Of a stretch of DNA of 64,000 nt, positions 4,433 to 64,000 are shown piece after piece. The position numbers and the translations under genes were made by a program. Source of the DNA: Halorubrum salinarum (GTDB lineage: Archaea > Halobacteriota > Halobacteria > Halobacteriales > Haloferacaceae); the NCBI RefSeq assembly GCF_013267195.1, contig NZ_CP053941.1:248001-312000 (forward strand), given 5' to 3'. A model generated the notes under the pieces. That model ran no database searches, was not told where the DNA came from, and saw nothing but the letters and a program-made list of their open reading frames with translations. Numbering within the stretch: the first letter of the stretch is position 1; every line of letters starts with the position of its first letter.

Positions 4433-5002
4433 TCAGTCCGAGATGAACTCGTTGTCGCGCCAGTTGACGCCGCCGTCGCCCTCGCCGGCGCCTTGCGGGC
4501 TCTCGACGACCTCGATGCTGGCGGGGCGCGGCTCGCCCTCGACGATCCGCGTCGCCTCCAGGTCGCCGTCCTCCTCGGTGATCGCGGTCAGCGTCCCCTT
4601 CTCGGAGAGGGTTGCGATCTTGCGGAGCACGAGGAACATGGGGTACTGGAGCGCGGAGTTCTGGAGGACGGTCTCGCGGTCGCCCTTGAAGCAGGCGAAC
4701 TCGACGAGCTCGGAGGGAATCTCTTCCTCCTCGTCGTCCATCCACTGCGGGCCGCCGGCGCGGGGCGGCTCCTCCTCCCAGACGCGGGTCTCCGTGACCG
4801 ACGCCTTCAGCTGCGCCGTGGGGGTGTACTTGCTGATCGACTCGTCGTCGGACAGGGCCTTGATGATGAGTGTGTTGTTTCGACGCGTGATGTCGATGTC
4901 GTCGATCTCCTCCGGCAGATCGGGGTCTTCGTCGAAGTACGTCTCTACGTCTTCGAGGGGCAATTCGAGCGTCGAATGAAGTCGGAACACGCGGCCTGTC
5001 AT
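4433..5002 (-). CDS. Conserved haloarchaeal protein (probably DUF7110)
   Basis: A 189-residue acidic soluble protein of unknown function that I recognise as conserved across haloarchaea; I believe the family is DUF7110. Visible parts: an N-terminal segment MTGRVFRLHSTLELPLEDV, the stretch ITRRNNTLIIKA, LKASVTETRVWEE, an acidic linker near residue 110, FACFKGDRETVLQNSALQ and a C-terminus ending GVNWRDNEF. There are no membrane segments and no known catalytic motif. It stands alone on its strand, with a TATA region placed unusually far upstream, so unlike most genes here it should have a real 5' leader of tens of bases. Confidence 0.75.
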   Translation of the reverse strand: MTGRVFRLHSTLELPLEDVETYFDEDPDLPEEIDDIDITRRNNTLIIKALSDDESISKYTPTAQLKASVTETRVWEEEPPRAGGPQWMDDEEEEIPSELVEFACFKGDRETVLQNSALQYPMFLVLRKIATLSEKGTLTAITEEDGDLEATRIVEGEPRPASIEVVESPQGAGEGDGGVNWRDNEFISD

Positions 5003-5066
5003 TGTTTGTGGGATGCGGTGGGGTCGAACCGGTGGTCACGGCGGCAGCGGCAACGGCTGCACCTGC

Positions 5067-5094
5067 CCTATATAGGCACCGTGGGTTTATATGG
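5067..5094 (-). promoter_or_regulatory. Two TATA-like boxes upstream of the DUF7110-type gene
   Basis: On the minus strand the boxes read CCATATAAA (5086-5094) and CCTATATAGG (5067-5076, a perfect palindrome). The nearer one is 65 bases before the ATG at 5002, predicting a leader of about 40 bases. The intervening 5003-5066 is GC-rich and holds no other gene. Confidence 0.5.
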
Positions 5095-5177
5095 CCTGCC
5101 CTTCGAGGTGTGAAGATCGGTGCGGCGAGCGGGCGGGGTCACCCCGGGGCCGAGTCACGTTCTGCGCGGAACCGGGC

Positions 5178-5522
5178 TCACTCGGCGCCAAGCTCCGCGG
5201 CGAGCTCGCCGCGCTCGTCCAGCTCGGCGAGCACGTCGCTCCCGCCGACGAACTCGCCGTCGACGAAGGTCTGCGGGATCGTCTCCCAGCCGCTGTGGGA
5301 CTCGAGCGCCTCGCGGTACTGCGGCAGCGCGGGCAGCACGTCGACGGTCTCGAACTCCTCGACGTGCTGGGAGATCAGTTCGACGGCGCGCTGCGAGTAG
5401 CCGCACTGCGGCATCAGGCGGTTCCCCTTCATGAAAAGCACCACGTCGTTGTCGGCGATTGTCGTCTCGACGCGCTCCTCGATCGCTTCCGGGTCGGCGT
5501 CCGTTTCGGGGCTGAACGTCAT
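5178..5522 (-). CDS. Monothiol-type glutaredoxin
   Basis: A 114-residue glutaredoxin-fold protein. VVLFMKGN opens the thioredoxin fold, the active site reads PQCGYSQRAV (a CGYS variant of the monothiol CGFS site), the cis-proline segment is TIPQTFVDGEFVGGSDV, and the end is a short acidic helix. Monothiol glutaredoxins bind glutathione-ligated or related Fe-S clusters and hand them to other proteins; haloarchaea use gamma-glutamylcysteine instead of glutathione, so the thiol partner would differ. MTFSPE at 5522 is taken as the start; ATG at 5528 would add only two residues. It is transcribed as a single gene downstream of gfcR. Confidence 0.82.
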   Translation of the reverse strand: MTFSPETDADPEAIEERVETTIADNDVVLFMKGNRLMPQCGYSQRAVELISQHVEEFETVDVLPALPQYREALESHSGWETIPQTFVDGEFVGGSDVLAELDERGELAAELGAE

Positions 5523-5605
5523 GACCATCCGTACGCGTCGGCGAGGCAAATGGGTTCCGCACGGCTGTCGTCCGCGCACGGGTCGTCCGCGCGCGGCCCC
5601 CGCGC

Positions 5606-6238
5606 CTACTCGTCGCGGTCGACGCGGACCACGTCGACGAGCGAGTAGACTGGGACGCCGTCTATCTCGTCGTACCCCATCTTGTCGACCAAGACGACGC
5701 ACGCGACGGGCTCGCCGCCCTGCTCGCGGATCGCGTCGATCGACTCCCGCATCGTCGTCCCCGAGGTGATGATGTCGTCGACGACGTAGCAGTCGCGGTT
5801 CCGGATCGCGGCGAAGTTCCGCGAGAAGCCGCCGCCGTGCTCGTCGATGTCTCCCTCCTCCCACTGGTGTTTCGCGGGGGCGTACGTGCCGAGGTCGGTG
5901 TCGAGCCGGTCCGCGACCGCGGTGGCGAGCGGCGCGCCGGCCTTCTCGATGCCGACCGTCAGGTCGACCTCCTCGCCCTGCTTGACGAGGAGGTCCGCCA
6001 TCGCGCTCGCCGCGTAGCCGAGGCGGGTCGAGTCGCGCCCGAGCGCCGACCAGTCGACGTGGATGTCGGCGGAGGCGGTCGCGTCGGCCGCTTCCGCGCT
6101 CTCGGCGCCGCCGCCGCGCTCGACGAGCCAGCTCGCCGTCTCGCGGGAGACGTTCAGCTCGTCAGCGATCTCGCCCTTCGAGAGCCCCCGCTCCGCGAGC
6201 TCCGCCGCGCTGTCTATCAGGTCGTCAACGTTCTTCAT
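5606..6238 (-). CDS. gfcR: GfcR-type sugar-metabolism regulator (HTH plus phosphoribosyltransferase-like domain)
   Basis: A 210-residue protein with an N-terminal helix-turn-helix (residues about 3-38: LSKGEIADELNVSRETASWLV) joined to an orotate phosphoribosyltransferase-like domain whose PRPP loop is visible near residue 148 as YVVDDIITSGTTMRESID. This is the architecture of GfcR, the Haloferax volcanii activator of glucose and fructose catabolism (formerly called PyrE2), where as I recall gfcR also lies next to glucose dehydrogenase. Here its start overlaps the end of the glucose dehydrogenase gene by 14 bases, so the two are co-transcribed and may be translationally coupled. A sugar-phosphate ligand sensed by the PRTase-like domain is likely but not shown. 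Confidence 0.87.
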   Translation of the reverse strand: MKNVDDLIDSAAELAERGLSKGEIADELNVSRETASWLVERGGGAESAEAADATASADIHVDWSALGRDSTRLGYAASAMADLLVKQGEEVDLTVGIEKAGAPLATAVADRLDTDLGTYAPAKHQWEEGDIDEHGGGFSRNFAAIRNRDCYVVDDIITSGTTMRESIDAIREQGGEPVACVVLVDKMGYDEIDGVPVYSLVDVVRVDRDE

Positions 6239-7295
6239 ACGCGGCGAATTCGACCGCCGTTTTAATAGTCGTGTCGTCATCCGCGAACGCGGCCTCGAAG
6301 TCGTCGAGCCCGTGGACGCCGGTCACGAGATCGCCTAAGAACTCGTCCGAAAGGGCCGAGAGCGACTCGACGGCGGACTCGAAGTGGCCGTACCCGGAGT
6401 TGACGCTGCCGACGAGCGCCTTGTTGTGGAGGACGAACTCGCGGTGGAGCCGGCCGCCGTCGATCTCGAACTCCCAGTCGCCCGGGACGCCGAGGAGCGC
6501 GCCGACGCCGTTGGGCGCGAGCGCCTCGATGGTCTCGAACGCGTGCGGGGCGTACCCCGTCGCCTCGAAGACGAGGTCCATGGGCTCGTACGCGCCGGGC
6601 ACCTCTGGGATCGGCGTCTCGTTGGAGTTCACGTACGTCGCCCCCAGCGACTCGATGATGTCGATCGTCGGGTCCGGGCGCTCGCGCCGCCCGAGACAGT
6701 AGGTCCGCTCGAACTCCTCGTCGAGGGTCGCGACGGTCAGGAGGCCGAGCGACCCGTTGCCGAGCACGAGCGCCGACTCGGGCTCCCAGCGGAACGCCGA
6801 CCGGCTGGCGTACGCGTGGTCGAGCGCCTTCTCCGCGATCGAGACCGGCTCGACGAGGAACCCCCACTCGGCGAGCGCGGGCGGGATCTCGACTAAGAAC
6901 TCCGCGGGGCTGGTGAAGTACTCGGCCATGAACCCGTGCGCGCCGACGATGCCGCGCTCGTGGTACTCCCCCTCCGGCGCCATGTCCGGCTCGCCGCGCG
7001 CGAAGTACTCGTTGGCGCCGTTCGGCGGGCGGCGGACCGTCGGAACGACCACGTCCCCGACCTCGAACGGCGTGTCGTTGGGGTCCTCGACCACGCCGAC
7101 GGCCTCGTGGCCCAACACGAGGTGGTCCTCGCCCGCGGGCGTCCCGCCGTGCCCGCCGGCGATGACCTCGTGGTCCGTGCCGTCGACGCCGACCCGCAGG
7201 GTCCGAACGAGCGCCTCGCCGGGCGCGGGCTCCGGTCGCGGCTTCTCTGTCACGACCGGTTCGTCGGCTCCCTCGTAGACGGCTATCGCGTTCAT
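6225..7295 (-). CDS. gdh: Glucose 1-dehydrogenase, zinc-dependent (haloarchaeal GlcDH)
   Basis: A 356-residue zinc-dependent medium-chain dehydrogenase that oxidises glucose to gluconolactone with NAD(P), the first step of the semi-phosphorylative Entner-Doudoroff pathway. The length matches the Haloferax mediterranei enzyme (357). The zinc ligands known from that structure are present: Asp38 in RVGVDGTDH, His63-Glu64 in VLGHEAVGVV, and a Glu near residue 149 in FLVEPVS. The Rossmann loop LVLGNGSLGLLTVA follows near 185. I used the ATG at 7295 (MNAIAVYEG); a longer frame adds 18 unrelated residues. The downstream regulator gene gfcR overlaps its 3' end. Confidence 0.92.
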   Translation of the reverse strand: MNAIAVYEGADEPVVTEKPRPEPAPGEALVRTLRVGVDGTDHEVIAGGHGGTPAGEDHLVLGHEAVGVVEDPNDTPFEVGDVVVPTVRRPPNGANEYFARGEPDMAPEGEYHERGIVGAHGFMAEYFTSPAEFLVEIPPALAEWGFLVEPVSIAEKALDHAYASRSAFRWEPESALVLGNGSLGLLTVATLDEEFERTYCLGRRERPDPTIDIIESLGATYVNSNETPIPEVPGAYEPMDLVFEATGYAPHAFETIEALAPNGVGALLGVPGDWEFEIDGGRLHREFVLHNKALVGSVNSGYGHFESAVESLSALSDEFLGDLVTGVHGLDDFEAAFADDDTTIKTAVEFAAYEER

Positions 7296-13088: not shown

Positions 13089-14713
13089 GCGAACACCTCC
13101 GTGATGAACGGGCCGAACCACTCCGCGAGCGAGAAGCCGCCGAATCCGAGGCCGACCGCCGCCACCACCGCCAGCGCGAGCGCGAGCAGCGGCGCCGTCG
13201 GCACCCGGTCGGGGACGAGCGACGACCGCGGCGCGCCCTCGACGGGCGCCGGGAGGCCGTCGGCCGTCTTCGCGACGGACCCCTCGCCGCCGTCGGTCGC
13301 GGCGGAGTCGCCCGCGCGGCCACCGTCGGCGGCCGCGCCGTCACTGGGCACCTCGCCGTGGTCGCCCGGGAGCCCGGCGCCGGCGAAGTAGAACCGCTCG
13401 AGCAGCCGCGCGACGTACGACAGCGTGAACAGCGTGCTGACGAATATCGCCGCCGCGACCGCGATCCCGACCGCGCCGCCGCCGGCGAGGCCGGCGTCGA
13501 CCGCGCCCACGCCGATGTACCACTTGCCGAGGAAGCCGATCGACGGCGGGATGCCGACCAAGGCGAGCCCGAGGACCGCGAGCGCGCCGGACGTGTACGG
13601 GGCGGCGCGCGCGGCGCTCGCGAGGTCCTCGATCCGCCGGGTGCCGTAGCCCAGCGCGAGCAGCCCAATCCCGAGGAACAGGCCGAACTTCAGGATCGCG
13701 TGGCCGATCAGGTGGACGATCCCGCCGAGCAGGGCCGTCTCGTTCGCCAGCGCGACCGCCGCGCCGATCATGCCGAACTGCGCGACCGAGGAGTACGCGA
13801 ACATCCGCTTGAGGTTCGACTGCATCGCGGCGAGCGCGGAGCCAGCGACGATCGAGACCGTCGAAACGGCGAGCAGCGCGGTCGCGATCCCCTCGTTGGC
13901 CGCGAGGAAGTCGACCGTGAACACGGTGTAGGTCACGCGGATGAGCGCGTACGCGCTCGTCGTCGAGACCAGCGCCGCGACGATCGTCGTGACCGAGTCC
14001 GGCGCCCGCTGGTAGGCGTCCGGCTGCCAGGAGTGGACCGGGAAGATGGCGATCTTCAGCGCCAGCCCCGTCACGATGAACGCGTAGCTCGCGCGGACCA
14101 GCGGGTCGCCGTAGCCGGCCTGCGCGACGATCTGCGCCTGGACGTCGAGCATGTTGAGCGTCCCCGTCGCGAGGAAGACGTAGCCAACGCCGAGCAGGTA
14201 CAGCGAGGCGCCGACCGTGCCGACGACGAGGTACTTCAGCGAGGCGTACGCGCTCGCCCCGGTGCGGTCGGAAGCGATGAGCGCGTACGTCGTCAGCCCG
14301 GTGATCTCCAAGAAGACGAACAGGTTGAACAGGTCCCCGGTGAGCGTCATCCCGGCGAGCCCCCCGACCAGCAGGAGGTAGGCGCTGTAGAAGGGGTTCC
14401 CGTGGGGGCCGGCGGCCCGCGCGAACGCGAGCGTCGCGACCGAGACCGCGGCCACGAGCAGCAGCACCGCGACCGACAGCCGGTCGGCGACGAGCTCGAT
14501 CCCGACCGGCGGGAGGAAGCCGCCGAGCGCGTGGTCGAACGGGCCGTTCAGCACCACTTCAGCGGCGATCGCGGCCGCGATCCCCGCCACGGCGGTCGTC
14601 CCGACCGCGGCGACCGGCCAGCCGACGCGGTCGTACCGCAGGCCGAGCGCCAGCGGCAGCGTCGCCGCCACGATGGGGACGACGATCGCGAGCGGCAGGA
14701 GGACGTCAGTCAT
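13085..14713 (-). CDS. mrpD1: MrpD-like proton-conducting membrane subunit (first copy)
   Basis: A 542-residue polytopic protein and the most MrpD-like of the three copies. Landmarks: GDLFNLFVFLEITGLTTYALIA (TM5 Glu), LKYLVVGTVGASLYLLGVG, FPVHSWQPDAYQRAPDSV (TM7-8 loop), KRMFAYSSVAQFGMIGAAVA and LIGHAILKFGLFLGIG. A hydrophilic linker of about 55 residues before the last helix holds two DGG repeat units. It is directly downstream of mrpC, with an 8-base overlap of start and stop, as in bacterial Mrp operons where C and D interact. It should form part of the proton path of the antiporter. MTDVLLPL is chosen over an ATG three codons earlier. Confidence 0.88.
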   Translation of the reverse strand: MTDVLLPLAIVVPIVAATLPLALGLRYDRVGWPVAAVGTTAVAGIAAAIAAEVVLNGPFDHALGGFLPPVGIELVADRLSVAVLLLVAAVSVATLAFARAAGPHGNPFYSAYLLLVGGLAGMTLTGDLFNLFVFLEITGLTTYALIASDRTGASAYASLKYLVVGTVGASLYLLGVGYVFLATGTLNMLDVQAQIVAQAGYGDPLVRASYAFIVTGLALKIAIFPVHSWQPDAYQRAPDSVTTIVAALVSTTSAYALIRVTYTVFTVDFLAANEGIATALLAVSTVSIVAGSALAAMQSNLKRMFAYSSVAQFGMIGAAVALANETALLGGIVHLIGHAILKFGLFLGIGLLALGYGTRRIEDLASAARAAPYTSGALAVLGLALVGIPPSIGFLGKWYIGVGAVDAGLAGGGAVGIAVAAAIFVSTLFTLSYVARLLERFYFAGAGLPGDHGEVPSDGAAADGGRAGDSAATDGGEGSVAKTADGLPAPVEGAPRSSLVPDRVPTAPLLALALAVVAAVGLGFGGFSLAEWFGPFITEVFA

Positions 14714-15218
14714 CCGCCTCACCTCCCGTCTCGGGCGACTCGACCGCGCCGTCCGCCCCCGACGCTCCCGCCGACCGCCGCGACGGGATCGACCCCTCGT
14801 CGCGGAGCAGTTCGCGGAGCGTGTCGGTCCGCAGCGTCCCGTACTCGTCGTATATCCGGATACACAGCGCGAGCCCGACGGCGGTGAGGCTCACGCCCAC
14901 GACGATGGCGGTGAGCACGAGGACGTGCGGGAGCGGACTGACGTAGAGGCCGCCCTCCGGCCCGCCGGTCGGGACGATCGGGATCGATCCGCCGTCGACG
15001 TACGCCGAGGCGATGAACAACAGGAAGATCGCCGTCTGGAACAGGTTGAGACCGATGATCTTCTTCACGAGGTTCGGATTCGCGATCATCATGTAAAGGC
15101 CGATGCACAGCAGCACCGCGAACGCGACGTACGCGTGTCTCGTTGCGAGCACGTCGACCGCGCCGGTGGCCGAGGCGAGCGTCGAGACGGCCGCGCCGGC
15201 GCCGAGCGGGGCGGACAC
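14706..15218 (-). CDS. mrpC: MrpC (NuoK-like) subunit
   Basis: A 170-residue NuoK/MrpC-like protein. Three hydrophobic helices are evident: residues 28-46 (AYVAFAVLLCIGLYMMIA), 52-72 (KKIIGLNLFQTAIFLLFIA) and 98-121 (HVLVLTAIVVGVSLTAVGLAL), with the family's LTAIVVG core. The C-terminal 50 residues are an acidic cytoplasmic tail (ASGADGAVESPETGGEADD) longer than in bacterial MrpC. The start is GTG at 15218, which shares a base with the stop codon of mrpB (TAGTG). It works with MrpD in the hydrophobic part of the antiporter. Confidence 0.87.
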   Translation of the reverse strand: MSAPLGAGAAVSTLASATGAVDVLATRHAYVAFAVLLCIGLYMMIANPNLVKKIIGLNLFQTAIFLLFIASAYVDGGSIPIVPTGGPEGGLYVSPLPHVLVLTAIVVGVSLTAVGLALCIRIYDEYGTLRTDTLRELLRDEGSIPSRRSAGASGADGAVESPETGGEADD

Positions 15219-58196: not shown

Positions 58197-58205
58197 GCCT
58201 ATACG
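58197..58205 (+). promoter_or_regulatory. TATA box for the nop5-like frame
   Basis: GCCTATACG, centred 28 bases before the ATG at 58229; shows the truncated gene keeps a normal promoter. Confidence 0.5.
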
Positions 58206-58228: not shown

Positions 58229-58519
58229 ATGACCGACACCGACGCCGACGCGGGGTGGTTCTCGCGGTCCGACGCGGGCGACGCCGCCGACGCCGCCCGC
58301 GACCGGCTCGCGAACGGCGAGGCCGACCGGCCCCGAGACTGGCCGGCCCTCGCCGTCGAGTCCGGGTTCGCCGACTCGACCGACGACTACTACGACCGGC
58401 TCCACGAGGCGAGCGTCGCGGCGACCCGCGAGGCGGTCCGCGAGCGGGAGCGCGCCGACGACGCGCAGCTGATCCACGCGGTCCGGGCGATAAACGACAT
58501 GGCCAGAAAACTAGTATAG
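58229..58519 (+). pseudogene. NOP5/NOP56-like protein, truncated after 96 residues
   Basis: The 96 residues (WFSRSDAGDAADAARDRL, then PRDWPALAVESGFADSTDDY, YDRLHEASVAATREAVRERE, RADDAQLIHAVRAIND) match, from memory, the N-terminal part of haloarchaeal Nop5, whose full length is about three times longer and ends in a Nop domain. Nop5 is a core of C/D box RNA-guided 2'-O-methylation complexes. After MAR the frame reads KLV and stops at 58517-58519, exactly where the base composition turns A/T-rich. I interpret this as a gene cut by an inserted island; the remainder may lie beyond the window or another copy may exist elsewhere. It could also be a small gene in its own right. Confidence 0.55.
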
Positions 58520-58714
58520 AATATCTCTAAGGATGGCCTTATTCAAATCCTTCCCAACCAACAGATCCTGGCATAGATTGCTAAGTACAGGGAGTGACCC
58601 ATCATCCGTGTTGAAACCTATTCGGTACCTGTCCAGAATCGCGTGCTGGATATAGAGGGTATACTCAGCAAGATCTTGGCCACCACCCCCATATATAGAA
58701 CAAAAAGTGGTGCT
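58511..58714 (-). pseudogene. Open 67-residue frame without a start codon, possible gene remnant
   Basis: On the minus strand a frame begins after a TGA (58715-58717) and ends with TAG (58511-58513). It reads like protein: YGGGGQDLAEYTLYIQHAIL, DRYRIGFNTDDGSLPVLSNL, CQDLLVGKDLNKAILRDILY. There is no ATG or GTG start. Base composition and residue use suit a coding remnant from the island, probably the C-terminal end of a lost gene. No family is recognised. The stop overlaps the last codons of the truncated nop5-like frame on the other strand. Confidence 0.4.
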
Positions 58715-58727
58715 TCAACCGGAGATG

Positions 58728-58758
58728 GTGCACGATTTTAATATGCTTACACGTGCAC
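58728..58758. promoter_or_regulatory. Inverted repeat around a TATA-like box before the broken sensor kinase
   Basis: GTGCACG (58728-58734) and CGTGCAC (58752-58758) are perfect 7-base arms with a 17-base spacer containing TTTTAATATG (58736-58745). The box is about 35 bases before the ATG at 58776. The arrangement suggests a repressor or activator site across the core promoter. Confidence 0.4.
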
Positions 58759-58775
58759 TAGACTCATTATAATCG

Positions 58776-60212
58776 ATGGATAACGAGACAACCCACCGAG
58801 AGAATAATAATCACAAGCCAGAGTGGTATCGGACGCTCGTTGAGGAGGTAAATGATCTCGTGACGGTCGTCGATACTGACGGGACAATAACCTACGTTAG
58901 TCCGGCCATCACACGGATTCTCGGCTACGATCCCGGCGAATTGGTTGGCCACGAGGGACTCGAATTCGTCCATCCCGAGGATCGGGAGCGAAACGCCGAC
59001 GCGCTGGAGGCTGTTCTCTCAAACCCTTCCGAATCCGAGACTGTTGAAGTCCGATTCCGCCACGCCGACGGCTCGTGGCGCTGGATTGAGGCCACAATGC
59101 GGAATCGAGTTGACGACGATATCATCGATGGGATTCTGCTTAGCAGTCGAGACATTACTGAGCGAAAAGAGCACGAACGCGAAGCGCGAGAGCTTGCCGA
59201 AGAGTACGAAGCCGTTTTGAACAGCGTGGAGGACGCCATCTTTCTGATGAATGTTGAGGAAGATGGGGATGGTGTCCGATTCGAGTTTGAGCGCCTCAGC
59301 CCCTCCTATGAGCGCCAGACTGGGATTACTACCGAGGAAGTACAGGGCCAGACACCACAGGCCGTGTTCGGTGAAGAATAGGGCGCTGAGTTAGCGGCGA
59401 ACTATCACCGCTGTGTCAAGGCCGGCGAACCGATCTCGTATCAGGAGGAACTCCGGGTCAGCGAAGGAGCACGATTCTGGCAGACAAAACTTGCGCCGGT
59501 AGTCTCCGATGGTGAGATAACTCGCCTCGTTGGGGTCACTCGGAACGTGACTGAACGCGTCGAACGTGAGCGACAACTACGTCAGCAGAACGAGCGGCTC
59601 GGAGAGTTTGCGAGTGTTATCTCCCACGATTTGCGCAGTCCGCTCAACGTCGCACAGGGTCGCGCTACACTCCTTGCTGAGCAGGGAGAAAGCGAGCATC
59701 TTGATCCACTACTACAGGCGCTTGACCGGATGGAGGCGATTGTCGAGGATACGTTGACGCTTGCTCGCCAAGGTGATACAATAAGCGAAACAGAGTCGGT
59801 CAGTTTGACTAACCTCGTCGGGAAATGCTGGGCGACAGTAGACACAGGCGAGGCAACTATTGAGATTGTCGACGAAATGACCTTTCAAGCAGACCCTGAC
59901 CGGTTACGCCACGTGTTCGAGAACCTGTTCCGAAACGCTGTTGAACACGGTGGATCCGACGTGACCGTTCGTGTCGGCTGTCACAACGAACTTGGGATCT
60001 ACGTCGAAGACAATGGACCAGGAATTCCAGTCGAAAAGCGTGACGAGGTGCTCGAACCGGGACACTCGTCGGCACAGGGTGGTACTGGTTTCGGGTTAAC
60101 TATCGTAAAACGAATCGTGGAAGCCCACGGCTGGGAGCTGTCTGTAGCTAATGGAACCGATGGTGGAGCACGGTTTGAGTTCGAGATGTCTGAACAAGGA
60201 GAGTTCGTGTAA
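58776..60212 (+). pseudogene. PAS-domain histidine kinase broken by an in-frame TAG
   Basis: One frame of 479 codons reads as a complete sensor kinase except for TAG at 59379-59381 (codon 202). Before it: a PAS domain (TLVEEVNDLVTVVDTDGTIT, LGYDPGELVGHEGLEFVHPE, ILLSSRDITERKEHEREA) and the start of a second. After it, in the same frame: the rest of PAS 2 (YHRCVKAGEPISYQEELRVS, LVGVTRNVTERVERER), the H-box ASVISHDLRSPLNVAQG, the N-box FENLFRNAVEHGG and G-boxes DNGPGIP and GTGFGLTIVKRIVEAHGWEL. The typical length of a PAS-PAS-HisKA-HATPase protein is retained. A single base change from TAT, TAC or similar would make the stop. A sequencing error is possible; otherwise the gene yields a 201-residue fragment. 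Confidence 0.8.
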
Positions 60213-60271
60213 GGTTATGTATAATTCCCGACCCATGATTGAGAAGTGCGACCTCAACTACTGAGCGCAGC

Positions 60272-60287
60272 GATTTCAACAGAGCCA
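60272..60287 (+). repeat. Direct repeat GATTTCAACAGAGCCA, left copy
   Basis: GATTTCAACAGAGCCA at 60272-60287; a near-identical copy GATTTCGACAGAGCCA is at 62484-62499, 15 of 16 bases equal, same orientation. The two flank the intact histidine kinase. The string resembles the ends of haloarchaeal insertion sequences as I remember them, unverified. Each copy is preceded by AGCGC. Confidence 0.4.
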
Positions 60288-60344
60288 AAACTTTAGTCTG
60301 CTTGGGCAAGTCGTCGTTTTGAGACCTGAGGTGCGAGACAAATC

Positions 60345-62285
60345 ATGAGTGAGACCCCGCCAACCAGACTGGTTCTCCAGAGCCTTCTTGACGCCACAGC
60401 CGAGGTTGCGCTTTTGATAGACTCGGACGGTCTTGTCGTTGAGGAACTCCGGAACGACAGCGACCACGAGTTACTCGACTATGGCGACGAAGAGCTGACA
60501 AGCAAGACGCTGTGGAACGCGCTTCGGTCCTCTCAGCTTGAGCATCTCCGTACCACCATCGAAAAGGTATTCGACTGTGGAGAGACACGGCCGGTCGACA
60601 TTCAGATCGGCGTCGAGGGAAAAACGAGACAAGTAGAGGGGACGGTGAGTCCAGTCGGTGACGGAGAGCCCCGCTTTGCGTTGTTGACGATCGAGGACAC
60701 TACCCAGCAGATGGACAGACAACGTGCTCGTGATCTACTCAGCCGGGTCTTCGAGGTCGCTCCCATTGGTATCGTTGTCGTAGAACCGTCTGGGAACATA
60801 TCACGGGCGAATGGGCGTGCCGAAGATATCCTTGATCTAGAGCGAGAAGAAATTACCAGTCGGACGTACAAAGATCAAGAGTGGAATATAACCTATGACG
60901 ACGGCACACCGATTGCTTCCGACGAGCACCCAGTGACGAAAGTCCTACAGACTGGAGAGCCAGTTCTCGGCTTGGAACATTGGATTGAATTGCCGGATGG
61001 GACAAAAAAGTGGCTCTCAAGCCACTCTGCTCCGGTGTTGGACGAGGAGGGTGACGTTGAGTATGTCGTGGTCGGACTCGACGATATCACTCACGCGAAG
61101 TCTCGCGAAGAGCGACTGGAGTGGCTGGTTAGAAGCGAGGAACTGGCGGACATCGGCGGTTGGGAACTTGATCTCAAGACAGACACCGTCAGGGGAACGG
61201 CCGGTATGAACCAACTGCACGGAGATGACGACTATCCCCTCCCACTAGAGGAGGTCATCACACTGTATCACCCTGATGACCGTCGAGACATACGTGACGC
61301 GATCACCGCTTGTCGGGAGGAAGGCTCTCCGTTCGAGATTGAGGCCCGACGGCGGACAGCTGACGGGTACGAACGCTGGGTCCGTGTGGCTGGAGAGCGT
61401 GTCGAAGAAGAGGGAACAAAGAAAGTCCGCGGTGTCGTCCGAGACATCACGGTTGATAAGGAACGTGAGCAGCGACTCAGCGTGATGAATCGGGTATTAC
61501 GACATAATATCAGGAACCGTGCGAATGTCATACTTGGGCATGCTGATCTGGTGAAGGACGAGCTGGAGAAACTCGATGTCCCGGAAGAAATAAAAACAGA
61601 ACGACAGGAACTACTGGACTCGATCGAGAAGACATCAAAAGAAGGTCGGGATCTCCAGTCCGAGGTTCGCCTGTTGGAGAATTTATTGGCTGACCTACAA
61701 CAGTCGTCTGTAGAACGGGCTGAGACGGGTGTTGACATGATCAGGACTGCCTCGGTAGACCTCACAGAGCTATCCGAGAAGGTGCGTGCTTTTGACGACG
61801 CAATTGACCGTATCGACACTGTGGATAATGTCGAACTCAGCTCGGTCATCGGTGCCCTGGTCACCGAGTACGGCGAAGAGTTTCCCGAGGCCGATATCAA
61901 CGTTACCGGCGACGACGTGACGGTGACCGGTGACCGAGAGGTGCTTCGCGTGATCCTTCAGATCCCTATTGAGAACGCACTCCAACACTGTGAGGCACCG
62001 GAGCTGAGCATCTCAGTGACCGCGCCGTCGTCAAGGTCGGACCGGGTTGTTGTCAGCATCAAAGACGACGGACCTGGGATCCCCGAGTTAGAGAAGCGCT
62101 CGTTAGAAAAGGCTCAAGAGACACCAACGGCTCACAGCACAGGCATCGGACTGTGGACGATGCAGTGGCTCACCCGACGTATCGGAGGAGCAGTGTCCGT
62201 AGCGGAAAACACACACGGTGGAACGACGGTCGAATTGGAACTACCCATCTCCTTCGAGAGTAAACAGGCCCTCTCGTCGGAGTAG
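60345..62285 (+). CDS. PAS-domain histidine kinase
   Basis: A 646-residue soluble sensor kinase without membrane helices. Three PAS domains are visible: about 5-120 (LLDATAEVALLIDSDGLVVE), 125-250 (LLSRVFEVAPIGIVVVEPSG, with a PAC end VVGLDDITHAKSREE) and 260-370 (WLVRSEELADIGGWELDLKT, ending VRGVVRDITVDKERE). The kinase part has an H-box LRHNIRNRANVILGHADLVK with HN in the haloarchaeal style, N-box IENALQHCEAPELSIS, and G-boxes DDGPGIP and STGIGLWTMQWLTRRIGG. Such kinases sense small molecules, redox state or light; no response regulator is adjacent. It lies on the A/T-rich island and is intact, unlike its neighbour. Confidence 0.9.
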   Translation: MSETPPTRLVLQSLLDATAEVALLIDSDGLVVEELRNDSDHELLDYGDEELTSKTLWNALRSSQLEHLRTTIEKVFDCGETRPVDIQIGVEGKTRQVEGTVSPVGDGEPRFALLTIEDTTQQMDRQRARDLLSRVFEVAPIGIVVVEPSGNISRANGRAEDILDLEREEITSRTYKDQEWNITYDDGTPIASDEHPVTKVLQTGEPVLGLEHWIELPDGTKKWLSSHSAPVLDEEGDVEYVVVGLDDITHAKSREERLEWLVRSEELADIGGWELDLKTDTVRGTAGMNQLHGDDDYPLPLEEVITLYHPDDRRDIRDAITACREEGSPFEIEARRRTADGYERWVRVAGERVEEEGTKKVRGVVRDITVDKEREQRLSVMNRVLRHNIRNRANVILGHADLVKDELEKLDVPEEIKTERQELLDSIEKTSKEGRDLQSEVRLLENLLADLQQSSVERAETGVDMIRTASVDLTELSEKVRAFDDAIDRIDTVDNVELSSVIGALVTEYGEEFPEADINVTGDDVTVTGDREVLRVILQIPIENALQHCEAPELSISVTAPSSRSDRVVVSIKDDGPGIPELEKRSLEKAQETPTAHSTGIGLWTMQWLTRRIGGAVSVAENTHGGTTVELELPISFESKQALSSE

Positions 62286-62673
62286 TGTATCACTTGTAGT
62301 AGGACTCGTGTCGGGTATGTACGCTCAGGGTTATTACAATCGGTTTTTTGTATACTTTGGCGAGTATTGAGGCTACACCGCACATACTTTATTGATACGG
62401 AGCAATAGCCGGCACCTCATTTTTCGGGTGCCCGACACGCGCCCTGTATTCAGCACAGCCTCAAGAAACTATCAGCGCTTTAGGATTTCGACAGAGCCAC
62501 ACCCAGGTGTTCGCACTGCGCCAGCGTAGTGTTCCTAACCAGGATGATCGGCACACTTGAACCTAATTGGTTCGGCGACCACCACTTGTTCTAGGGTCTA
62601 CCGGCCCTTACAATCCGTAAAGTGAGCATCTCTACAATATGTGCCTCGTAGACCCAACTCTTCACCCAAATTG
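62286..62673. other. 388-base non-coding stretch between convergent island genes
   Basis: No reading frame of note lies here. It contains the right copy of the 16-base direct repeat (62484-62499), several T-rich tracts, including one at about 62342-62350 shortly after the kinase stop (CGGTTTTTTG), and A/T-rich sequence around 62380-62425. It may hold terminators of both flanking genes and remains of a mobile element. Confidence 0.5.
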
Positions 62674-64000
62674 CTAGTACCCGAATCTTTCTTGTGGGTC
62701 TAGCGGGTGCTTCTCCGACGTTTCTGGGAGAAACTCCTCAAAGAGAGTTTTAAGCTCAGAGGAACTGGCATGCTCGATCTCTGGGGCATTTTGGATACAC
62801 GAATACTCGAGGTCTTCTTCATAGAGCCATGCCCGCGTTTCATCATTCGGCTCTTCCCATGCCCAAACCTCCCCATTTACCTGTTTGTCGTTGTCGCTGA
62901 AGGCACCGACTTTCCTCTCTAACTGTGCTGTCAGTTCCGAGAGGCGCGAATTACTGAGGTCAACCTTGGTTTCGACGACTTTGATTTCATCCGGCTTTTC
63001 GATCCAGGCGTCGATTTCTTCTCCATTCACTGTATGGCTCCAGAACACCTCTCCATCGGAGTTGCGCCGAGCAAGAACGTAGGCACACGCCAGTTCAGCT
63101 ATTGTAGACCTTGCTGAATTGATACCCGACATGAGATTCGAGTTCGCTTCGGCAATCTCAAGATAGTCGTCAGAAAGCCGGGGAGATATCTCCTCAATGA
63201 AGTCGTCTCTGTCGACTTCTATCTCCAATCGCTTCACGGGGTTCAAATCGTCTATGTTATCGATGAGGTCTTCTACCCGACGGATTTTCCACTCGCCTTC
63301 AATTTCGTAGTCAGCTCCGACGCTATCGAATATCAGCCACCCAGATGGGTCACCAACGGCTCGCGGAGGAAGACGTTGAAGAATAGCGTACGTTACAACC
63401 GACCCTTCGTCGGCCACCGGATGGTTAAACCGCGTAACATGGATGGGAACCTCCTCGTCTTCGTACTTCGAATAGCTCATCGCGAGTCCCCACAGAGTCG
63501 TTTCGATCAGAGGGACCTTGCTAAATGTGGCATTCCCGAGCCACTCGACTTGCCGACTCCAATGCAACCCGAATGCTGTCCTCGCGCTCGGACTTATATC
63601 CTCAAGCTCACGATAATCGGTCTCTCTTAGTAGAGGGCCAAAATAGGATTTGAGGGCCTTTTGCTTGGAAGTCTCCAGTAGGTCGTCGGGGCCAAGTGAC
63701 CCTGCTGACTCATATCCATTGTAGCGATCATCAATCTTCTCGATGATGGAGTCGCGTATCTTGACCCGGAACGAATTGAGCGTCGTCTTTGGCTCGTTGC
63801 TGAGTCCTTCTTCCTCCAATTCCCAGGCATCACGCGGACTCCATCTTTCACTTTCGGTGAGTTTCCCAAGCTCCACTTTGTCGAGCTGGTCATCTGGGGC
63901 CAGCTCAGACCAAGCTACCTGTAGGGTAGCTGAATAGCCGAATATTGAATTTTCCCGTGGTCCAGTATCGACCCATGTATTGTAATTTGACGGGCCATAG
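62674..64000 (-). CDS. Unrecognised protein with a PD-(D/E)XK nuclease-like C-terminus, cut by the window edge
   Basis: At least 441 codons are open from the stop at 62674 up to the window edge at 64000, so the start lies outside; residues upstream of the first in-window start (YGPSNYNTWVDTGPRENSIF, then GYSATLQVAWSELAPDDQLD) look genuine. A C-terminal region has a Glu in an alpha helix (IAELACAYVLARRNSD), an Asp in NGEEIDAWIEKPDE and an ExK in IKVVETKVDLSNS, the order and spacing of a PD-(D/E)XK nuclease active site. The middle part (WLGNATFSKVPLIETTLWGL; YAILQRLPPRAVGDPSGWLI) is not recognised. It is on the island beside mobile-element-like repeats, so a defence or restriction function is possible but only inferred. 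Confidence 0.6.
   Translation of the reverse strand, partial: YGPSNYNTWVDTGPRENSIFGYSATLQVAWSELAPDDQLDKVELGKLTESERWSPRDAWELEEEGLSNEPKTTLNSFRVKIRDSIIEKIDDRYNGYESAGSLGPDDLLETSKQKALKSYFGPLLRETDYRELEDISPSARTAFGLHWSRQVEWLGNATFSKVPLIETTLWGLAMSYSKYEDEEVPIHVTRFNHPVADEGSVVTYAILQRLPPRAVGDPSGWLIFDSVGADYEIEGEWKIRRVEDLIDNIDDLNPVKRLEIEVDRDDFIEEISPRLSDDYLEIAEANSNLMSGINSARSTIAELACAYVLARRNSDGEVFWSHTVNGEEIDAWIEKPDEIKVVETKVDLSNSRLSELTAQLERKVGAFSDNDKQVNGEVWAWEEPNDETRAWLYEEDLEYSCIQNAPEIEHASSSELKTLFEEFLPETSEKHPLDPQERFGY

Follow-up and report, generated by a model that had tools for sequence, protein, structure and literature searches.

Integrative elements that replace the 5' end of a protein-coding gene are known from bacteria. 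Islands and prophages inserted in dusA substitute the 5' end of this gene and provide a new promoter, and excision has been demonstrated for them (PMC4482086, PMC8409611); a 5'-end replacement with a new promoter is likewise ascribed to the SXT/R391 ICEs in prfC (Hochhut and Waldor 1999, cited in PMC8409611). For archaea, the accessible text of two sources describes thaumarchaeal elements in protein genes, with 3'-distal sites at which only the C-terminus or the stop changes (PMC6563490), and the integration of halovirus BJ1 into the gene for HMG-CoA reductase, with no details of repair (PMC8371274). Archaeal integrases of the pTN3 type target the 5' half of tRNA genes, and the restored gene receives an element-borne 5' half (PMC8371274). 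Complete type I-B CRISPR-Cas systems encoded by haloarchaeal proviruses, that is, located on mobile DNA with an integrase nearby, have been described as well (PMC12596717).

The window, i.e., the entire 64,000-nucleotide stretch of DNA that was analyzed (G000:C1:248001-312000), comes from a Halorubrum-type genome (3.34 Mb, 3 contigs, 99.97% complete). In our assessment, it is very likely to contain the left part of an island that carries a tyrosine integrase, integrated site-specifically into the host nop5 gene and rebuilt this gene with a promoter and an N-terminus of its own. Positions 58229-58519 (plus strand) comprise a frame of 96 codons closed by a TAG (58517-58519), and the GC content drops from ~0.77 in the frame to ~0.49-0.56 in the adjacent DNA, which bears out the original prediction of a Nop5-like frame ending after residue 96 where the base composition changes. 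The similarity to Nop5 also holds: although the Pfam match to PF21572 is weak (E=0.0013, 19.5 bits, under the cut-off of 27.8), the native Nop5 that a congener (G039) encodes intact matches residues 1-~89 with 84% identity in the aligned core. The identity to the Nop5 N-terminus encoded by the island is only ~53%. By these two values, the stub represents the 5' end of the resident host nop5, now displaced, and the complete copy received its N-terminus from the island. The last 7 codons of the frame (58499-58519) belong to the island and not to nop5, so that the host part, a pseudo-N-terminus at attL with codons 1-~90, stops at ~58498 (58229-58498, plus strand; delimited by the identity to G039 and the alignment of the flanks to >20 congeners). 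The promoter proposed upstream of the frame was recognized as a TATA-like element, CCTATACG (58198-58205, plus strand), ~24-31 bp before the stub ATG. Counterparts with the same spacing and a similar motif precede other nop5 starts, both native and element-borne, and occur in congeners as well as before the other stubs; judging by this motif, it is the original nop5 promoter, which now drives the stub only.

The A/T-rich island occupies 16,618 bp between the two crossover sites (G000:C1:306492-323110); its left 5.5 kb are in the window (58499-64000) and it extends to G000:C1:323110, 11.1 kb past the window end. A Nop family search of the whole genome yielded one match (C1:323249-323665), 11 kb beyond the window, in an open frame of 332 codons. 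Within the region read as L002 (C1:306001-325500), a complete Nop5 of 301 aa starts at L002:16850 and is followed by flpA (L002:17748-18386). Codons 1-88 of this gene have a GC content of 0.50 and a GC3 of 0.43, against 0.77 and 0.94 for codons 92-300: the host nop5 is cut at codons 88-89, and ~88 island codons are fused in frame to the host codons and flpA. The chimera is the sole complete nop5 of this genome, and each genome searched contains one complete nop5, the chimera. Thus, among the options considered in the original prediction, a mobile island inserted in nop5 with the rest at its far end proved right, the other two thirds being found 16.6 kb downstream together with flpA; a second nop5 did not materialize, as there is no other complete copy. 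That the island brings a substitute promoter and N-terminal domain, so that nop5 is rebuilt rather than destroyed, went beyond that prediction. The chimera matches the Nop domain PF01798 with 129.5 bits (curated cut-off 25.4) and also 3id5, 2nnw and others, residues 37-117 aligning to residues 97-177 of 3id5 (i-Evalue 4.9e-7); it does not reach PF21572, the archaeal Nop5 N-terminal domain (15.4 bits for a cut-off of 27.8), which the native stub misses too. The AlphaFold model of the Halorubrum californiense chimera has low confidence (mean pLDDT 58), and no structural inference was drawn from it. We infer that the chimera is expressed and works as the only Nop5 of the cell.

No tRNA was found at the junction. 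At attR, the members of this group read ...CATAGTATTCGNGCNATGGACGAC up to the host boundary, apart from one base in G333 and a few bases in G342; at attL, host codons extend to ...GCNATGGACGAC, where ATGGNNNGAATACTANTATAG takes over, which varies at a few positions and brings an in-frame stop after 6-8 codons. A homologous left arm with the stop is present in all 8 stubs; in the window it is ATGGCCAGAAAACTAGTATAG (58499-58519, plus strand), the right half of the inferred attP dyad, which closes the stub and is complementary at 12 of 15 positions to the attR arm TAGTATTCGTGCCAT. When the island ends are joined, an inverted repeat, TAGTATTCGNGCNAT / ATGGNNNGAATACTA, surrounds a 7-bp center, GGACGAC, that codes for the two aspartates of an R-A-M-D-D motif. 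The dyad comprises 12-13 complementary bases out of 15 in seven of the eight elements (shuffle p <=1.5e-4) and is weak in G316 (8/15). A dyad around a 7-bp center is the architecture expected of a tyrosine recombinase core site; our placement of the exact cleavage points within it is deduced from comparison of the junctions. From the eight attL/attR pairs, the putative crossover region in the window attL is AAACGAC (58492-58498), which differs at two positions from the GGACGAC of attR (codons D-D of RAMDD), and the attL of G012 has an indel, so that post-integration mutation must be assumed in these two cases.

The left and right flanks of the window island abut in >20 congeners, where the common part is only CGNGCNAT and no island sequence is present, and N. 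thermotolerans has an annotated DUF63-nop5-flpA locus without interruption, to which the occupied sites of two Natrinema genomes (G133 and G223) align. An intact nop5-flpA pair free of the island in relatives had been named in advance as evidence against a disrupted gene; such pairs do occur, but they are the expected empty sites and hence do not refute the insertion.

The junction sequences show the following scheme. The island is integrated at the conserved R-A-M-D-D codons, at the transition from the fibrillarin-binding N-terminal domain to the coiled coil. One half of the attP reconstructed from the island ends (TAGTATTCGNGCNAT - GGACGAC - ATGGNNNGAATACTA) is the end of a nop5 5' module consisting of a promoter, a start codon and ~88 codons, and the other half carries a stop codon. 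With the halves so arranged, recombination with attB (host ...GCNATGGACGAC...) leaves the host promoter and N-terminus as the 96-codon stub at attL and, at attR, joins the island promoter and N-terminal domain in frame to the C-terminal two thirds of the host gene and flpA. Precise excision by the integrase would be predicted to restore the native gene. If the right end were lost imprecisely, nop5 would be destroyed, and this may help to keep the island and its defense cargo in the chromosome.

The same arrangement was detected in other haloarchaea. Stubs are present in eight genomes from several families, and six more have the chimera only or a broken contig. Among the 52 genomes of the genus, G012 contains a stub-chimera pair 20.7 kb apart; stub and chimera also occur in G316, G333, G133, G223, G394 and, on two contigs, G078. 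In G316, G333, G133 and G223, which belong to other families, the two flank the integrase or its remnant, and in G316 the integrase stop is 12 bp before the chimeric ATG. An element-type N-terminus was identified in G006 (H. californiense), G051, G104, G262, G342 and Halorubrum sp. Atlit-26R; in the first two it has a GC content of 0.53-0.55 and is located at contig ends. Five of these genomes (G104, G262, G394, G078 and G342) were added by a search with the attR junction sequence and Atlit-26R by a search for related loci. An assembly join at 58,500-58,530, raised as a possible artifact in the original prediction, is not the explanation because the arrangement recurs in independent assemblies. 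G104 and G262 retain the chimera and have neither a stub nor a close integrase, as if the foreign domain had become fixed once the island had decayed, which fits a needed chimera and a dispensable stub. In G394 (L159, C20), stub and chimera (644-920 and 14695-15000) are near-identical around the start codon and differ elsewhere (68% protein identity), which looks as if the two nop5 5' ends had undergone gene conversion with each other.

The integrase was identified by matches to PF00589 and a PHROG integrase family. It is intact in G006, G012, G316 and Atlit-26R, and shortened in the genome of the window, where only residues 104-363 remain (the first ~103 are missing). A search of 391 Halobacteria with the intact 363-aa protein of G006 (P0004) detected integrases at least 73% identical in seven genomes (G006, G012, G316, G000, G333, G133 and G223), all seven of which have a split or island-type nop5; in 14 genomes with integrases 47-63% identical, none is split, and each has one nop5 without a stub, away from the integrase (Fisher p = 9e-6 for the association of the clade with split nop5). 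In G006, G012 and Atlit-26R, the integrase is preceded by a pair of small genes; similar pairs accompany distant relatives, and no match was found in phage records. A kinship with SNJ2-type operons, which consist of an integrase (IntSNJ2) and the co-transcribed helpers orf2 and orf3, is conceivable. Both small genes are missing from the window island, which has an oppositely oriented gene instead. Given the shortened integrase and the missing companion genes, this copy is probably locked in.

The R-A-M-D-D motif aligns to residues 133-137 of Pyrococcus furiosus Nop5, in which fibrillarin is bound by the N-terminal domain and residues 116-122 form the linker between this domain and the coiled coil (PMC7089733). 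The exchange made by the island therefore covers the fibrillarin-binding domain in full, the linker and the initial turns of the coiled coil. The N-terminal parts of seven elements from several genera (group A: G000, G006, G012, G051, Atlit-26R, G104 and G262) form one clade (SH-aLRT 99), whereas their C-terminal parts reject this grouping (log-likelihood 180.6 lower, p-AU 8e-8) and fall with the host relatives; a second group (G133, G223, G078 and G342) has an N-terminal clade of its own. Purifying selection acts on the N-terminus from the island (median dN/dS 0.18, dS 0.60), as expected of a module that functions within Nop5. The chimeric ATG is preceded by a conserved promoter block, CCGGGATACATATACG, with a TATA-type motif, CATATACG; a BRE/TATA-like sequence located ~20-40 bp ahead of the start, CCGGGATACATATACGAATTC, is common to seven elements (one base off in G262). 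As the element block is clearly related to the native promoter before the G012 stub, capture of a nop5 5' region is the probable origin of the module.

These comparisons also bear on other explanations. Homologous gene conversion could have introduced a foreign nop5 5' segment together with neighboring island DNA without a site-specific integrase, and the near-identity of stub and chimera around the start in G394, the foreign N-terminus without stub or integrase in G104 and G262, and the resemblance of the island promoter to native nop5 promoters would all agree with it. However, all members cross over at the same GGACGAC, attP has the arms of a dyad, the split goes strictly with one dedicated integrase clade, and eight genomes still have the old 5' end at the far end, which makes conversion a very improbable origin. 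Disruption of nop5 by a transposon or another random insertion, with an in-frame restart downstream that arose by chance, would account for an insertion within a coding gene, but the downstream frame begins with 88 codons that are homologous to the N-terminal domain of Nop5, under purifying selection and behind a conserved promoter, and the insertion point is identical across families; the comparisons refute this reading, and we assign it a probability close to nil.

The duplicate or pseudogene fragment that the original prediction left open would be unrelated to the island, with the real nop5 intact elsewhere, and a complete frame of 301 codons does exist 16.6 kb away. The first ~88 codons of that frame are foreign, though, eight genomes are split at the same codons, and the stub together with the downstream host codons rebuilds the collinear native locus of >20 congeners, so that the flank alignment refutes a fragment and leaves it a minute chance. 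Site-specific integration with rebuilding of nop5 is the reading that we adopt below.

The part of the island in the window encodes a PAS/HisKA/HATPase sensor kinase (58776-60212, plus strand; PAS_3, HisKA and HATPase_c over cut-off) with an in-frame TAG (59379-59381) between the PAS and HisKA parts in an otherwise open frame, which looks like a recent pseudogene; a second PAS-HATPase sensor kinase of 646 aa (60345-62285, plus strand; Pfam); and a 624-aa protein without a Pfam, PADLOC or PHROG match (62674-64000, minus strand), the 5' end of which is beyond the window (L002:4674-6548). In addition to sensor kinases, this island encodes PDC-S54, a type IV REase-like HNH protein and an Mrr-like protein. 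The G012 element contains a complete type I-B set, cas6-cas8b-cas7-cas5-cas3-cas4-cas1-cas2 (PADLOC), with 52 repeats; by reading of the protein sequences, the cas operons of G133, G223 and G394 look like that of G012 (118, 130 and 50 repeats, respectively), G342 has cas1-cas2 and 46 repeats, and G078 has 23 repeats. Other cargo includes PbeA, PbeC and a type II methyltransferase in G316, DrmB and a C5 methyltransferase (DISARM-like) in Atlit-26R and an LmuB-like ATPase in G104. As judged from these assignments, most of the elements examined carry defense genes (CRISPR-Cas I-B, Pbe, DISARM-like or restriction). Comparison of the CRISPR spacers of six nop5 islands with the other nop5 islands of the set gave no convincing protospacer, only 14-19-base matches at chance level.

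No conjugation genes were recognized among the island proteins scanned, and no virus structural or packaging genes among nine island proteins, for which PHROG gave only the integrase, a marginal scaffold-like match (E 0.0045) and one family of unknown function. Viral, phage and plasmid collections yielded no circular form: the attP pattern was not found in viral contigs, nor was the integrase in viral contigs or phages; plasmid records contain only distant homologs of it and no match to the helper gene. The N-terminal module was not found on any phage, and its one plasmid match was rejected as a native, empty-site nop5 on a Natrinema replicon.

Relatives of the nop5 integrase are located next to other genes. 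In G087 (L145, C30; minus strand, ~4715-6728), a relative with 55-56% identity stops 35 bp before a HAD hydrolase gene, in which the GC content is 0.58 in the 5' part and 0.69 in the 3' part and an FDMDG motif contains ATGGACGG, like the nop5 core. This is possibly a sister element family replacing the 5' end of another gene; no displaced HAD 5' end was found in this genome. In two genomes of different families (L152, G014:C77, and L153, G084:C1), integrase islands with 52-53% identity abut the 3' end of the same long gene, the product of which (~500 aa) looks like a secretion-type ATPase; this suggests a further protein-gene target in this integrase group.

The closest parallel to the nop5 islands is the dusA/prfC class, with which they share an element-borne integrase, an element-borne promoter, start and 5' coding sequence, a displaced 5' end and a clean attB; the likeness is one of mechanism. 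In the dusA islands (Farrugia 2015, PMC4482086; IMEVchUSA3, PMC8409611) the old 5' end also stays at the other end, but these are bacterial elements in another gene that replace a short N-terminus (35 residues, 61% identical, in IMEVchUSA3), whereas the nop5 islands replace ~88 of 301 residues, the whole fibrillarin-binding domain, in archaea, and their excision is predicted. SXT/R391, in the cited account, is a conjugative bacterial element, unlike the nop5 islands as far as the scanned proteins indicate. The thaumarchaeal elements and BJ1 share with them integration inside archaeal protein-coding genes, and the accessible text of those sources describes no replacement of a promoter and domain; the pTN3-type target is a tRNA and not a protein gene, and the report of type I-B proviruses (PMC12596717) mentions no nop5 or fibrillarin target. 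In a literature search with most subscription journals outside its coverage, no report was found of archaeal islands or integrases connected with nop5 or fibrillarin, or of an archaeal protein gene with its 5' end replaced in this way. As far as could be checked, the nop5 target, the replacement of a whole domain, the defense cargo in this setting and the mechanism on an archaeal protein gene are new.

The swap might not be neutral: through its own promoter and fibrillarin-binding domain, the island could control box C/D RNA-guided methylation or hold it hostage, the stub may make a free fibrillarin-binding fragment, and the arrangement may be a selected stabilization strategy. We regard this as a rather unlikely extension of the scheme; if true, cells that lose the island imprecisely would lose nop5.

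Taken together, the nop5 islands are a family of integrative elements that is found in several families of haloarchaea and has a fixed target, a conserved site in a core RNP gene; the cargo that they bring to different archaeal families includes CRISPR-Cas I-B, Pbe, DISARM-like and restriction systems. Their integration explains the foreign N-terminal third of some haloarchaeal Nop5 proteins. The resulting chimeras are natural domain swaps in which an RNA-methylation factor can be studied, and the conserved integrase with its defined att site could serve as a tool for site-specific integration in haloarchaea.
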